Position numbers and translations under genes: made by a program
Virus record (IMG/VR): IMGVR_UViG_3300023236_000013
Location: 1-48,095 of that record
Source: a virus
Reading direction: 5' to 3' (one strand)
Length of the DNA: 48,095 bases
Notes under the pieces: generated by a model
The model's database searches: none
The model's input: the letters and a program-made list of their open reading frames with translations, nothing else
Told to the model about the DNA's origin: nothing
Part shown: piece after piece, positions 19,033-38,972 of the stretch
Position numbering within the stretch: the first letter of the stretch is position 1
How the letters are laid out: each line of letters begins with the position of its first letter

Positions 19033-19058
19033 GGGTAAAAAATAATAATAATAAATGC

Positions 19059-19086
19059 TTGACAATAAAATAATCAACACTATATT
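19059..19086 (+). promoter_or_regulatory. sigma-70-type promoter of the replication operon, near-leaderless
   Basis: TTGACA (19059-19064), 16 nt, TATATT (19081-19086). The first credible start (19094) is only 7 nt beyond the -10, so transcription should start at or next to the ATG. An upstream in-frame ATG at 19055 precedes the -35 and so cannot be on this transcript. Confidence 0.75.
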
Positions 19087-19093
19087 GCTAATT

Positions 19094-19450
19094 ATGAAAG
19101 AAAATAAAGTTTACGTCATTCAAGAAATTGCTGGTACTGCCGAAGGTAGGCCTAAAATAAATATTATGGGCGCATCAAAATATGGTGAGTTTGTTTTTTT
19201 ATTACCGGAACTTTCACAGATAATATTTTCTCCTGGTCCGTTAATTTTTAAACTTAGAAAAGCTTTAAAAGATTTTACGACAGAAGATTATTTATTATTA
19301 ACTGGAGATCCTGCAATTATTGGTGTAGCGTGTTCGATAGTTTCTGACATAACTAATGGTAAATACAATTTACTAAAATGGGATAAACAAGAAAGACAAT
19401 ATTATCCTATTCAAATTAACTTATATGAAAGAGGAAAGATAGATGAATAA
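19094..19450 (+). CDS. Conserved phage protein of unknown function, first gene of replication operon
   Basis: A 118-aa protein beginning MKENKVYVIQEIAGTAEGRP. I prefer this start over the ATG at 19055 because the promoter elements occupy 19059-19086. The sequence is globular with alternating strands (KYGEFVFLLPEL, PLIFKLRKAL). It lacks a motif I can name. Its stop overlaps the next gene by 8 nt. Its position heading the replication genes suggests an early role. Confidence 0.65.
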   Translation: MKENKVYVIQEIAGTAEGRPKINIMGASKYGEFVFLLPELSQIIFSPGPLIFKLRKALKDFTTEDYLLLTGDPAIIGVACSIVSDITNGKYNLLKWDKQERQYYPIQINLYERGKIDE

Positions 19451-32151: not shown

Positions 32152-32465
32152 GCTCTTAAGCTGTTAGGATGGCTTCTTACCCCTTTTCATCACGTCCTAG
32201 CAGCACCTATCATTACCCAATATTACTGGATCAAGAGGCATGGAACACGGACCATGGATCAATTAAGATAAATTGTGTTCTAATTGTGGCAAGATTAAGG
32301 CAGAATAAGGCAGAATCTAGGTGTCGCGGAAGTGTCGCGATTTGCATTTTACGCCATTCTAGGTGTCGCGATAGGTGTCGCGATTTGCTTCGAAGTGTCG
32401 CGATTTTAAAAGGAATGTGACAGATTGTCGCGATTGTGGACAGAATGTCGCACTTTTGGGGCTAG

Positions 32466-32482
32466 ATTAGAATCATTCTAAT
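32466..32482. repeat. Central perfect palindrome ATTAGAAT-C-ATTCTAAT
   Basis: A 17-nt perfect palindrome with 8-bp arms, located between the direct-orientation iterons and the inverted ones, forming the dyad axis of the iteron cluster. Confidence 0.7.
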
Positions 32483-32659
32483 GTATCGCGACACCTGGAG
32501 GCAAAATCGCGACACTTTTTATCGCATAAAACGACATCGCGACACTTTCGCGACACTACAGGTGTCGCGATGTTTTGGTCAATTGAAGCGCTTATACCAA
32601 TGCTTCTAGGAGATAGGTCAAGCTTATTTACCAATCGCGACACCTTCCCAGATTTTTTA

Positions 32660-33256: not shown

Positions 33257-33806
33257 TAAACAGTATATATTAGATAATAAGGAAAAGATTTCTGAACAGA
33301 AAAAACAATATTACTTAGCTAATAAAGAAAAGATTTCTAAAGAAAGAAAACAGTATCATTTAGATAATAGAGAAAGTCGGATACTATATAATAGACAGTA
33401 TAGATTAGATAATAGAGAACAGATTTCTGAATATAAAAAAGAATATGAATTAGCTAATAGGGAAAAAATATATAGTTATAAAAAACAAAAAAGAGATACT
33501 GATCCACTTTTTAGGTTAACCCATTTACTTCGTAATAGGCTCCGAGAAGCTTTAAAAGGTAATAGTAAATCAGCTTCTACTATGAAATTATTAGGGTGTA
33601 GTATTGAATTTCTAAAACAACACTTAGAGAAACAATTTAAACCTGGAATGAGTTGGGAAAATCGAAGTTCATTTCATGTAGATCACATTAGACCTTGTGC
33701 GAGTTTTGATTTAATTAAGCCTGAAGAACAAAGAAAATGTTTTAATTATACTAATCTTCAACCTTTATTTCCTATAGATAATATGAGAAAAGGTGCTAGA
33801 TATTAA
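33153..33806 (+). CDS. HNH homing endonuclease body
   Basis: Residues 25-110 are six consecutive 15-residue units such as NREQISEYKKEYELA, a charged helical DNA-binding arm. Then comes FKPGMSWENRSSFHVDHIRP, the first His pair of the HNH fold, and FNYTNLQPLFPIDNMRKG, the second (N-x-x-L-Q-P-L and D-N). The first 30 residues from the ATG at 33153 look like out-of-frame translation of the N-terminal repeats, so the native start is probably 33125 via a +1 shift or a mutation. Its stop overlaps the convergent TerS gene by 4 nt. Confidence 0.8.
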   Translation: MILLEDTIKEIKKSLGVKEESAIVLSKKEKLRLYNKQYILDNKEKISEQKKQYYLANKEKISKERKQYHLDNRESRILYNRQYRLDNREQISEYKKEYELANREKIYSYKKQKRDTDPLFRLTHLLRNRLREALKGNSKSASTMKLLGCSIEFLKQHLEKQFKPGMSWENRSSFHVDHIRPCASFDLIKPEEQRKCFNYTNLQPLFPIDNMRKGARY

Positions 33807-34330
33807 TTTAATAATTCTTTTGCTTTTTTAGATGGTTTTATCGTCTCAACCTCTTCAACCTCGGCCTCGACAGTCTTCATATTCAGCATCGGAGCGTAGT
33901 CTTCTAAAATCTTTTTCATTTTTAATTCTATTTCTTCTTCTGATAAATCTTCTAATTTCCCATGTTTTATTATTTTTCTGTCTATGTATAATCCTGCTGC
34001 CTTGCCTCGAGATACTTCAGCGTTCACAGCAGAAGAGAAACTGCCTTTCTTTAAAGCGGCCGTCTTAATTCTATCTAGTTCAGCTAAATGTTTATCGTAA
34101 GTAATTTCATGCTTTTTTATTCGCTCTTGCTTAAGTGAATCTACATATTGAACTACTAATGGAGATAGTCTAGGATTTAATAATTCTGATCCTTCTACTT
34201 TACACCTTTTGTGACTGTATCCAGCTAGCTTAGCTGCTTCTGATTGAGATACAGGACCTTCCTCGTCACCGAATACTATAAACTCGGCAAACCTCTTTTG
34301 CATTTCAGTTAATCTTTTAGGAACTCCCAT
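33803..34330 (-). CDS. terS: Terminase small subunit (TerS)-like
   Basis: A 175-aa protein. RLTEMQKRFAEFIVFGDEEG, then SEAAKLAGYSHKRCKVEGSE, then LLNPRLSPLVVQYVDSL match the Nu1/Terminase_2 small-subunit layout: an HTH domain with L-T-x-x-Q-x-x-F, A-A-x-x-A-G-Y and L-L-x-N-P-x-hh. The C-terminal helical part provides oligomerisation, and the last 40 residues are acidic then basic. It lies on the opposite strand from TerL (39526) and over 5 kb away. Transcribed from its own, near-leaderless promoter. Confidence 0.75.
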   Translation of the reverse strand: MGVPKRLTEMQKRFAEFIVFGDEEGPVSQSEAAKLAGYSHKRCKVEGSELLNPRLSPLVVQYVDSLKQERIKKHEITYDKHLAELDRIKTAALKKGSFSSAVNAEVSRGKAAGLYIDRKIIKHGKLEDLSEEEIELKMKKILEDYAPMLNMKTVEAEVEEVETIKPSKKAKELLN

Positions 34331-34331
34331 G

Positions 34332-34360
34332 TTGACATTTTAAGGTAACTGTCATATAAA
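34332..34360 (+). promoter_or_regulatory. Near-leaderless promoter of gene at 34367, overlapping terS promoter
   Basis: TTGACA (34332-34337), 17 nt, TATAAA (34355-34360), six nt before the ATG at 34367. It occupies the same 36 bp as the terS promoter, face to face. Confidence 0.7.
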
Positions 34361-34365
34361 GTCAA
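34337..34365 (-). promoter_or_regulatory. Near-leaderless promoter of terS, overlapping its divergent twin
   Basis: Minus strand TTGACT (34365-34360), 17 nt, TAAAAT (34342-34337), then GTCAAC and the ATG at 34330. Transcription should start at or next to the ATG. Its -35 lies on the -10/start of the plus-strand promoter. Confidence 0.65.
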
Positions 34366-34366
34366 T

Positions 34367-34687
34367 ATGAAAGATAATTTTAGACCAAGCGCTGCACAAC
34401 CTAACCCACCTAAAAAACATATAGAAATTATGAATGAAACTGTAGAAGATAGAGGAACTTTAGATTTAACTTTTCTGATTGAAGAGCATCAAAAACAAAT
34501 CTGGGCATATAAACAAAAAGAAGCTGAATGGATTAAAACTGATAATATACTTTCAGGTTCTAAAAAAATTATAGAAGAGTTAAGCACTAAGATAGTAGGT
34601 TTAGCTAGATATATTCAAGAGCTGGAGTATGATAATAATACTTATAAAAAAGAAATAGAAAAACTTCTTGCAGAAACTAAAAAATGA
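34367..34687 (+). CDS. Small phage protein, near-leaderless, unknown function
   Basis: A 106-aa protein beginning MKDNFRPSAAQPNPPKKHIE, then helical with coiled-coil periodicity (IIEELSTKIVGLARYIQELE). It shares the ATGAAAGA start and promoter spacing with the genes at 19094 and 28170. Overlaps the following gene by 4 nt. Function unknown. Confidence 0.6.
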   Translation: MKDNFRPSAAQPNPPKKHIEIMNETVEDRGTLDLTFLIEEHQKQIWAYKQKEAEWIKTDNILSGSKKIIEELSTKIVGLARYIQELEYDNNTYKKEIEKLLAETKK

Positions 34688-34947: not shown

Positions 34948-34979
34948 TATTTGCATGACATGGTTACTTTAAAAAACAT

Positions 34980-35357
34980 ATGGGCCCAGAGGCTAAATTA
35001 TACCAAAAACTTAAAAAGAATTTTAAAGAATTTTCTCTCATTAGACTTGAGAATCTTAGCTTACTTGGTACTCCTGATCTATTGGTCTACAATAATAATA
35101 GCCACTTCTTCACTATCGAATTAAAAGTAACAAAGGGTAAAAAAATACGTTTTTCTCCCCATCAAATTGCCTTCCATTTAAGACATCCTAACAATACATT
35201 TATCCTTATAGAGGCCCGCGGTCCGTGGTCCTCTAATACTTATTACATGTACCGTGGTTCACGGATCAGGGAGCTTGCTGCTTGTGGCTTGAAGCTTGAA
35301 GCTTGCAGCGAAGGGCTTGATGCTTGTCGCTTAATGCTCTCAGAGCTTGGCGCTTGA
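34980..35357 (+). CDS. PD-(D/E)XK (VRR-NUC-like) nuclease with repeat-derived C-terminus
   Basis: A 125-aa protein. LGTPDLLVYNNNSHFFTIEL and KVTKGKKIRFSPHQIAFHL have the G-x-x-D ... E-x-K and S-x-x-Q layout of VRR-NUC/Holliday-resolvase-like nucleases. From about residue 75, bases 35213-35230 and 35251-35274 are GGACC-type repeats (translating to ARGPWSS and RGSRIREL), and 35272-35357 are GCTTG-type repeats (LAACGLKLEACSEGLDACRL). So the C-terminal third is mainly repeat DNA read in frame, beyond the catalytic core. Confidence 0.7.
   Translation: MGPEAKLYQKLKKNFKEFSLIRLENLSLLGTPDLLVYNNNSHFFTIELKVTKGKKIRFSPHQIAFHLRHPNNTFILIEARGPWSSNTYYMYRGSRIRELAACGLKLEACSEGLDACRLMLSELGA
35272..35357. repeat. 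GCTTG-type repeat array inside the VRR-NUC C-terminus
   Basis: At least six GCTTG units (GCTTGCTGCTTGTGGCTTGA, GAAGCTTGCAGC, GGGCTTGATGCTTGTCGC) separated by a few bases. Other copies lie at 35636-35660, 36424-36490, 36830-36852 and 37314-37350. Same short words recur in both coding and noncoding DNA. Confidence 0.6.
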
Positions 35358-35627
35358 GGTTCGGGTCTTTCTTTTCTGTATATACTTTAATAATTTTTGA
35401 GCTTTAGAAAATTGCTCTATTCTAAAAAACATTTGTTCCCAACCTAAGCGCTTGCGGCTTTTGCAAAAGCTATTCCTGGCGCTTGCAGCTTGAGCCCTCC
35501 GCTCGAGACCCTTGTATATCTTTCCCAAAGGATTATACAGATCCCATAAAGGAACTGCCACTGAATTAATATCTAACCAGCGGGTAAATTTTTTCATTGC
35601 ATTTATTTTTAATAATCTAGTGTTCAT
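35340..35627 (-). CDS. Small basic protein containing repeat-derived segment, unknown function
   Basis: A 95-aa, strongly basic protein. The N-terminal half (MKKFTRWLDINSVAVPLWDL, LYNPLGKIYKGLERR) looks like normal coding sequence. The middle (RAQAASARNSFCKSRKRLG) translates GCTTGC-type repeat DNA. No clear ribosome site before the ATG at 35627; an internal ATG (35594) is an alternative. Its 3' end overlaps the VRR-NUC gene by 18 nt on the opposite strand. Confidence 0.45.
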   Translation of the reverse strand: MNTRLLKINAMKKFTRWLDINSVAVPLWDLYNPLGKIYKGLERRAQAASARNSFCKSRKRLGWEQMFFRIEQFSKAQKLLKYIQKRKTRTSSAKL

Positions 35628-36397: not shown

Positions 36398-36490
36398 AGT
36401 ACTATTTAATTGTGTCCGAATTAAGGCTTGCCGCTTGATGCTTGACGCTTGAAGCTCGGGCCCTGGTTCCTGGCCCGTGGAGCTTGAAGC
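36398..36490. repeat. Leader repeat cassette (copy 1) with GCTTG repeats
   Basis: The sequence ATTTAATTGTGT...ATTAAGGCTTGCCGCTTGA (36402-36441), followed by GCTTGACGCTTGAAGCTCGG, also occurs at 36801-36850. On the minus strand this unit lies upstream of an ATACAGGAGAAATAA leader. 36451-36475 adds a GGCCCTGGTTCCTGGCCCG copy of the GGTCC family. Confidence 0.6.
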
Positions 36491-36590
36491 TTTTGAAAAA
36501 GCGCTCGCAGCTGGCAAGATAGGATCGCGGCAGGTATCTATGATCTTGTAGAAAGTAGTGAGTTAAATCTCTATGTTTAATTCTTTTCAT
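36402..36590 (-). CDS. Small basic protein with repeat-derived C-terminus
   Basis: A 62-aa protein; ATG overlaps the upstream gene's stop (TAATG on the minus strand). MKRIKHRDLTHYFLQDHRYL looks native, while the C-terminal part (LHGPGTRARASSVKHQAASL) is translated from GGCCC- and GCTTG-type repeats. The gene may have been extended by repeat DNA. Unknown function. Confidence 0.5.
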   Translation of the reverse strand: MKRIKHRDLTHYFLQDHRYLPRSYLASCERFFKSFKLHGPGTRARASSVKHQAASLNSDTIK

Positions 36591-36796: not shown

Positions 36797-36853
36797 TAAA
36801 GTGTATTATTTAATTGTGTTCATATTAAGGCTTGCCGCTTGAGGCTTGAAGCT
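36797..36853. repeat. Leader repeat cassette (copy 2) with GCTTG repeats
   Basis: ATTTAATTGTGTTCATATTA (36807-36826) leads into AGGCTTGCCGCTTGAGGCTT (36827-36846), matching the unit at 36402-36441. On the minus strand it precedes the gene at 36775 by about 25 nt, so it may carry its promoter or an operator. Confidence 0.6.
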
Positions 36854-37297: not shown

Positions 37298-37310
37298 CAA
37301 CTACAGGTTG
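37298..37310. promoter_or_regulatory. CAACTACAGGTTG palindrome-like site (copy 1)
   Basis: One of three CAAC(C/T)(T/A)CAGGTTG-type sites (others 37376-37388 and 38104-38116). This one lies 20 nt upstream of the leftward promoter -35, where an activator or repressor would bind. Confidence 0.45.
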
Positions 37311-37313
37311 CAG

Positions 37314-37340
37314 CGCTTGGCGCTTGGCGCTTGGCGCTTG
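37314..37340. repeat. Tandem 7-bp repeat CGCTTGG, about 4 units
   Basis: CGCTTGG is repeated three times in tandem (37314-37334) and continues CGCTTGTTGCTTGG. It belongs to the GCTTG family and is followed by a T-rich tract (37349-37375). Confidence 0.7.
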
Positions 37341-37375
37341 TTGCTTGGTGCTTTTTTCTTTTTTTTCTTTTTTTT

Positions 37376-38143: not shown

Positions 38144-38175
38144 TTGACACCTATCCTATTAATGCTAGGATAGGT
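38144..38175 (+). promoter_or_regulatory. Promoter with embedded 10-bp palindrome
   Basis: TTGACA (38144-38149), 16 nt, TAGGAT (38166-38171). ACCTATCCTA (38149-38158) and TAGGATAGGT (38166-38175) are perfect inverted arms, 7 nt apart, covering the spacer and -10. Serves the gene at 38201. Confidence 0.7.
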
Positions 38176-38636: not shown

Positions 38637-38664
38637 TTGACACCTATAATGGATAGTATAGGAT
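38637..38664 (+). promoter_or_regulatory. Promoter TTGACA-16-TAGGAT with a short inverted repeat
   Basis: TTGACA (38637-38642), TAGGAT (38659-38664). CCTATA and TATAGG (about 38644-38662) are inverted arms across the spacer, related to but different from the palindrome at 38149. Confidence 0.65.
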
Positions 38665-38696
38665 AGGGATATATTAACTTATACAGGAGAAATAAT

Positions 38697-38912: not shown

Positions 38913-38945
38913 TTGACAAGGCTAGCCTATTAATATAGGCTAGCC
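38913..38945 (+). promoter_or_regulatory. Promoter with perfect 11-bp palindrome
   Basis: TTGACA (38913-38918) and TAGGCT (38936-38941) with 17 nt between. GGCTAGCCTAT (38920-38930) and ATAGGCTAGCC (38935-38945) are perfect arms 4 nt apart spanning the spacer and -10. It serves the gene at 38973. Confidence 0.7.
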
Positions 38946-38972
38946 CTATAACAAACATACAGGAGAATACAA

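Follow-up and report, generated by a model that had tools for sequence, protein, structure and literature searches.

A 34-bp element lying between terS, the gene for the terminase small subunit, and a divergently oriented gene is, with fair confidence, a compact bidirectional promoter of the sigma70 type, predicted from its sequence to be leaderless in both directions. One tiny site would then probably decide which of two neighboring virus genes is read. The element was studied in IMG/VR record IMGVR_UViG_3300023236_000013, whose 48,095 nt were analyzed as a whole ("the window"), and hundreds of marine virus sequences with kinship to SAR11 phages carry it with hardly a letter changed.

The intergenic letters of the window read ...CCCAT-G-TTGACATTTTAAGGTAACTGTCATATAAAGTCAA-T-ATG..., and the features recognized in and around them are listed in Table 1. 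When the letters were read again, the hexamers, spacers, gaps, start codons and coordinates of the original prediction all proved exact. The spacer is 17 nt long in the plus promoter and 17 nt in the minus promoter, and 6 nt separate the -10 from the ATG on each strand. Each -35 shares one base with the opposing -10, and the remainder of the -35 makes up the opposing discriminator; two polymerases could not, therefore, occupy the site together. The two -10s do not overlap, and the predicted transcription starts lie about 36–40 bp apart. Hexamers of the -10 type frequently lack the final T (TAAAAA, TATAAA).

Table 1. Coordinates of the 34-bp element, its predicted parts and the flanking genes in the window.
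Feature	Position	Strand	Remarks
terS, terminase small subunit, predicted leaderless, ATG 34330	33803..34330	-	Terminase_2 7e-8; PHROG 51 9e-15
Conserved 34-bp element, putative superimposed divergent promoters	34332..34365	-	terS strand TTGACTTTATATGACAGTTACCTTAAAATGTCAA; single copy in window
Predicted plus-promoter -35, TTGACA	34332..34337	+	doubles as discriminator and final -10 base in terS promoter
Predicted terS-promoter -10, TAAAAT	34337..34342	-	TAAAww in relatives
Core GTTACCTTAAA, presumed regulator site	34339..34349	-	TTACC invariant, inside spacer of both promoters
Predicted plus-promoter -10, TATAAA	34355..34360	+	TATAww in relatives
Predicted terS-promoter -35, TTGACT	34360..34365	-	
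P0002, 106-aa predicted coiled-coil, predicted leaderless, ATG 34367	34367..34687	+	replaceable partner
P0003	34684..34947	+	relatives dock directly on element where P0002 is absent

Hexamers alone prove little in this AT-rich DNA because sigma70-like matches occur at chance level in the window (44 found, 41 expected from shuffles). The nested pair at terS has a score of 21/24, the top value in the window; when the whole 48-kb window was simulated 200 times with a first-order Markov model, a pair scoring at least 21 appeared somewhere in 4 runs (~2%), a count that makes no demand that the pair span the interval from one start codon to the other. Its position exactly between two start codons makes the pair rarer still. 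A chance resemblance thus has both figures in its favor, and judged from a single window the pair exceeds chance only modestly. It is conservation that takes it beyond: near-perfect maintenance over hundreds of contigs refutes a fortuitous origin, which we consider extremely improbable.

Conservation was measured in an unbiased set of 80 IMG/VR loci, fetched with the TerS protein alone and without use of the element. The element lies upstream of terS in 79 of them, and the remaining locus (L025) ends at the contig edge where the element begins. No indels were found in the element, and both spacers are 17 bp long in these relatives. Among 57 distinct loci of the set, TTGAC (positions 1–5), TA (10–11), TTACC (18–22), TAAA (24–27) and GTCAA (30–34) are invariant, and mean pairwise identity reaches 0.86 in the element compared with 0.60 at the third codon positions of terS. 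The best nested pair scores 18–23 in 75/80 loci, with 17/17 spacers and one fixed register, while the maximum in simulated controls is 19–20. Exactly the geometry initially proposed, superimposed divergent promoters with leaderless starts, has been kept in evolution, which supports that part of the proposal.

A larger set was obtained by adding contigs retrieved with a DNA pattern that fixed TTGAC, ATA, TTACC, TAAA and GTCAA; conservation of those letters in the larger set is by construction, since the search imposed them. At every locus of this set long enough to show it, terS is present. All counts come from related sequences and are not independent trials. In six long contigs that were scanned from end to end, the longest of 63.6 kb, a single element each was counted. 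In bacterial genomes, the element was detected only in a pair of short MAG scaffolds from the Red Sea; terS is present on both, which are therefore probably phage contigs.

The 34-bp length and the inverted repeat formed by the ends, which in many relatives reads TTGACAAT...ATTGTCAA, also recall a recombinase site (13-8-13, loxP-like) or an RNA hairpin. Variable bases in the arms do not covary, however: AA or TT on the left is combined with TT, AA or AT on the right in similar proportions, and this independence of the arm letters largely refutes a hairpin. A recombinase site was rejected on account of the single copy and of a length that differs between clades, one of which has 33 bp, and no integrase was found among the proteins scanned. 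We regard an inverted repeat of either kind as a very improbable explanation.

The genes that flank the element provide a second line of evidence for the promoter reading. One side was predicted to encode a TerS-like protein, and this holds: the product matches Pfam Terminase_2 above the cut-off (33.7 bits; gathering score, 26.1) as well as PHROG 51. The description of the element as a switch for packaging genes goes too far because only terS is one, as far as can be told. Its partner is a small gene for a predicted coiled-coil protein, modeled as one long helix, and dissimilar genes replace it in relatives. If P0002 is missing, the ATG of the following gene abuts the element; P0003, whose relatives are found in this position, is weakly similar to gp31 of phage HTVC027P (E 0.056). 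BLASTP groups the divergent ORFs in clusters of 133, 17, 15 and 1 members, with P0003 relatives in the 17-member cluster (judged by eye from translations), and docking is kept throughout. In other words, the ATG remains docked although the divergent gene can come from any of three or more protein clusters that do not resemble one another. Counted in the larger set, the terS-side ATG lies 1–2 nt outside the element in 153 of 160 distinct contexts, and the divergent ATG lies 1–5 nt outside in 156 of 160. Extra small genes sometimes separate the element from terS, which is then 87, 448 or 583 nt away, and mostly another ATG docks. Such a combination of swapped genes and fixed docking would be expected if transcription is launched from a constant position by a promoter; a site that served terS alone fails to account for it.

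Individual variants were also seen on the terS side. In L042, L045 and L046, about 41 nt with inverted ends (TAGCCA...TGGCTA) are inserted between the element and terS, without an added Shine-Dalgarno sequence. In L029, L070, L162 and L233, a short ORF is docked on the element just ahead of terS; that of L029 begins with MNFIIWHLTAILAVMAISLIIGYSIG... and likely encodes a membrane peptide.

With a -10 that ends 6 nt before the ATG, the predicted +1 falls on the A of the start codon. Shine-Dalgarno-like 4-mers are absent from docked starts, both on the terS side (0/144) and on the divergent side (0/144); such sequences precede 41 of the 86 genes of HTVC027P (48%) and 36% of the plus-strand ORFs of the window. 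AAGGAG-type Shine-Dalgarno sequences occur in L153 and L180, where the first terS-side gene is 27 and 15 nt away, respectively. The placement of the -10 and the absent Shine-Dalgarno, found on both sides, lead us to predict that both genes at the element are leaderless, and we deem promoter activity with leaderless starts quite likely. Promoters at leaderless distance are in excess in the window (6, compared with 0–4 at shifted distances), which is suggestive only, and no excess was found in HTVC027P (3, compared with 0–5). Another good leaderless-looking start is present at 19059–19096 of the window (TTGACA-16-TATATT-7-ATG, with the ATG at 19094), so the Pam3 gp32-like gene would begin at 19094 and not at 19055.

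A feature not remarked in the original prediction is the core of the spacer: in the 57 distinct unbiased loci, TTACC shows no more variation than the ends of the element. Because it sits in both spacers, where sigma70 needs no particular sequence, a regulator is likely; mere competition between polymerases would explain the invariance less well than a dedicated regulator, and we lean towards a DNA-binding protein devoted to the core. The core varies with the TerS clade (TTACC or TTGTA), is local to terS and has a precedent in SPP1, reasons that make TerS the leading candidate for this role, on a tentative basis. The modeled N-terminal domain of TerS resembles the helix-turn-helix DNA-binding domain of SF6/SPP1 TerS (4zc3: TMt 0.88, Foldseek E 0.26), and the best Foldseek match is to the complete TerS from an SPP1-like phage (E 0.054); with such E values, the SF6/SPP1 likeness of the protein encoded beside the site is fold-level evidence only. 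Against TerS counts the observation that the isolated DNA-binding domain of SF6 TerS binds DNA without sequence preference (PMC4737164). A global phage regulator that reads the core at many promoters was considered and rejected: no second exact copy of the core was found in the window, and the six contigs mentioned above carry one element each. A copy with one mismatch, GTTACTTTAAA, lies at 34963–34980, 17 nt before the ATG of P0004, and may be due to chance. Likewise, TATAGGATA was rejected as a genome-wide box since it is not enriched over shuffles, though several copies lie in promoters.

The same properties of the core admit the explanation that the element is primarily a protein-binding site, a pac site or an operator for TerS or another phage protein, with transcription coming from elsewhere and a secondary resemblance to promoters. 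A core as invariant as the ends, its variation between TerS clades and the presence of one copy per contig, always beside terS, agree with this explanation. So does phage SPP1, whose pac site overlaps the terS promoters (PMC6316719). However, different genes dock on both sides without a Shine-Dalgarno, room for another promoter exists only inside the opposing gene, and the sigma70 geometry is matched by spacing in both directions, so that we judge a primarily protein-binding role quite unlikely. The parallel with SPP1 extends to the location of the site upstream of a terS with the SF6/SPP1 fold, and a work cited in that source indicates, by its title, that the SPP1 terminase represses its own synthesis. 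In contrast with the element, the SPP1 pac is described there as containing direct repeats and as spanning promoters, ribosome binding site and the beginning of gene 1; SPP1 terS has a ribosome binding site, and the description of the pac region there mentions no divergent partner.

The promoter reading was also examined in other TerS clades. HTVC027P, a cultured phage of Pelagibacter HTCC1062, has a TerS 50% identical to that of the window, and its gp31-gp30 gap, CAT-GGG-TTGATTTATAGATTAAGTTGTATTAAATATCAA-GT-ATG, is homologous to the element. This diverged 33-bp version is present in 72 of 80 relatives of HTVC027P TerS, where the flanking ATGs mostly lie 2 and 3 nt beyond its ends. When aligned with the 34-bp form, it shows 17-bp spacers in both directions despite having one base fewer because its hexamers overlap by two bases, not one; its core is TAAGTTGTA where the 34-bp form has AGTTACC. 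The promoter of this clade in the terS direction is weak (mostly 5–9 of 12), and blind, unsupervised scoring of the loci did not rise above controls, so the case for the site relies on alignment, that is, on homology and conservation. HTVC027P encodes no RNA polymerase and uses that of the host; the gene docked toward terS, gp30, which the authors describe as ArfA-like, stands in a temporal cluster by itself, with high expression at 3 h and again at 12–15 h (PMC12753301). This pattern fits the use of the site by host polymerase both early and late.

HTVC023P-type TerS proteins are 36% identical to that of the window, and their genes have no docked divergent partner. The upstream sequence, TGnTATAAC-aGGTCAAG-ATG, looks like a one-way, leaderless promoter with an extended -10 and the same GTCAA ahead of the ATG. 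The GTCAA may perhaps have been a discriminator first, later taken as a -35 on the opposite strand. Its retention where no partner requires a -35 is in line with the possibility that a single promoter works in the cell and that the likeness on the opposite strand stems from the near-symmetry of the shared ends. Since TATA and TTGAC of the partner strand are also invariant, and partner ATGs dock without a Shine-Dalgarno, we consider a single active promoter unlikely. Several direct repeats of the CTAGGAAAA type are found upstream of terS in HTVC023P (L239, 2740–2935), possibly a binding array for TerS or a regulator.

In the mechanism that we favor, a host RNA polymerase of the sigma70 type would read the element in both orientations. 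In one of them, the terS mRNA would begin at its AUG or within 1–2 bases of it; in the opposite one, the divergent mRNA would begin at its own AUG, and both messages, being leaderless, would be translated without a Shine-Dalgarno. A phage protein would probably bind the core in the shared spacer, biasing or shutting the site. If that protein is TerS, it could shut off its own gene and possibly mark DNA for packaging, as reported for SPP1. An either/or switch is plausible, and the chances that mutual exclusion has a regulatory effect seem to us about even.

Among known systems, the tetR/tetA region of Tn10 (Bertrand et al. 1983) reportedly has overlapping divergent promoters controlled by the product of one of the genes, as may be the case here; unlike the element as read here, it has operators between the genes and messages with leaders. 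The bidirectional promoters of Warman and Grainger are pseudo-symmetric DNA that polymerase binds in either orientation, producing divergent mRNAs (PMC12825309, PMC10268837); like the predicted promoters of the element, they are superimposed on both strands, and opposing polymerases exclude each other. They share or overlap their -10s, and their starts are typically 10, 18 or 23 bp apart. The element departs from this design in its separate -10s, in the location of each -35 on the edge of the other -10, in the larger distance between predicted starts and in the two leaderless messages predicted. In measurements on E. coli bidirectional promoters, interference arose only with strong activity in one direction (PMC12825309); by analogy, whether mutual exclusion matters at the element depends on promoter strength. 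Leaderless transcripts of Zymomonas mobilis and other alphaproteobacteria start at the AUG, as predicted here, and this bacterial class accepts such mRNAs; the published ones are described as having single starts, whereas the element is predicted to be leaderless in both directions (PMC7566282).

Other features of the window deserve mention. Three TTGACA boxes (38144–38175, 38637–38666 and 38913–38946) have long inverted repeats behind them in the spacer/-10 region, for example ACCTATCCTA-TTAATGC-TAGGATAGGT; they precede small genes led by Shine-Dalgarno sequences and look like operator-controlled promoters. At 32323–32570, repeated GTGTCGCGA inverted repeats are terminator-like on both strands. 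Degenerate tandem repeats of the GCTTGAAGCTTG type occur in the minus-strand gene block, partly inside ORFs (35270–35360, 36430–36500, 36830–36850 and 37310–37350).

Two full promoters with 17-bp spacers in 34 bp, without leaders, would come close to the minimum size conceivable for a two-way promoter, and the element has been held fixed in a widespread marine phage group while the surrounding genes were swapped. With the public time-course RNA-seq of HTVC027P on Pelagibacter HTCC1062 (PRJNA1253180), both the positions of the starts and the either/or claim can be put to a direct test. A regulator not yet described is suggested by the invariant core; it may be TerS, in which case packaging would be tied to gene control. 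A further speculation, which we hold to be unlikely, is that the same 34 bp serve as terS promoter, as promoter of the exchangeable divergent gene and as the site where TerS binds to initiate packaging, so that TerS, as it accumulates, would silence both genes and mark the genome for packaging. If true, the element would be a built-in timer kept in a widespread group of ocean phages.
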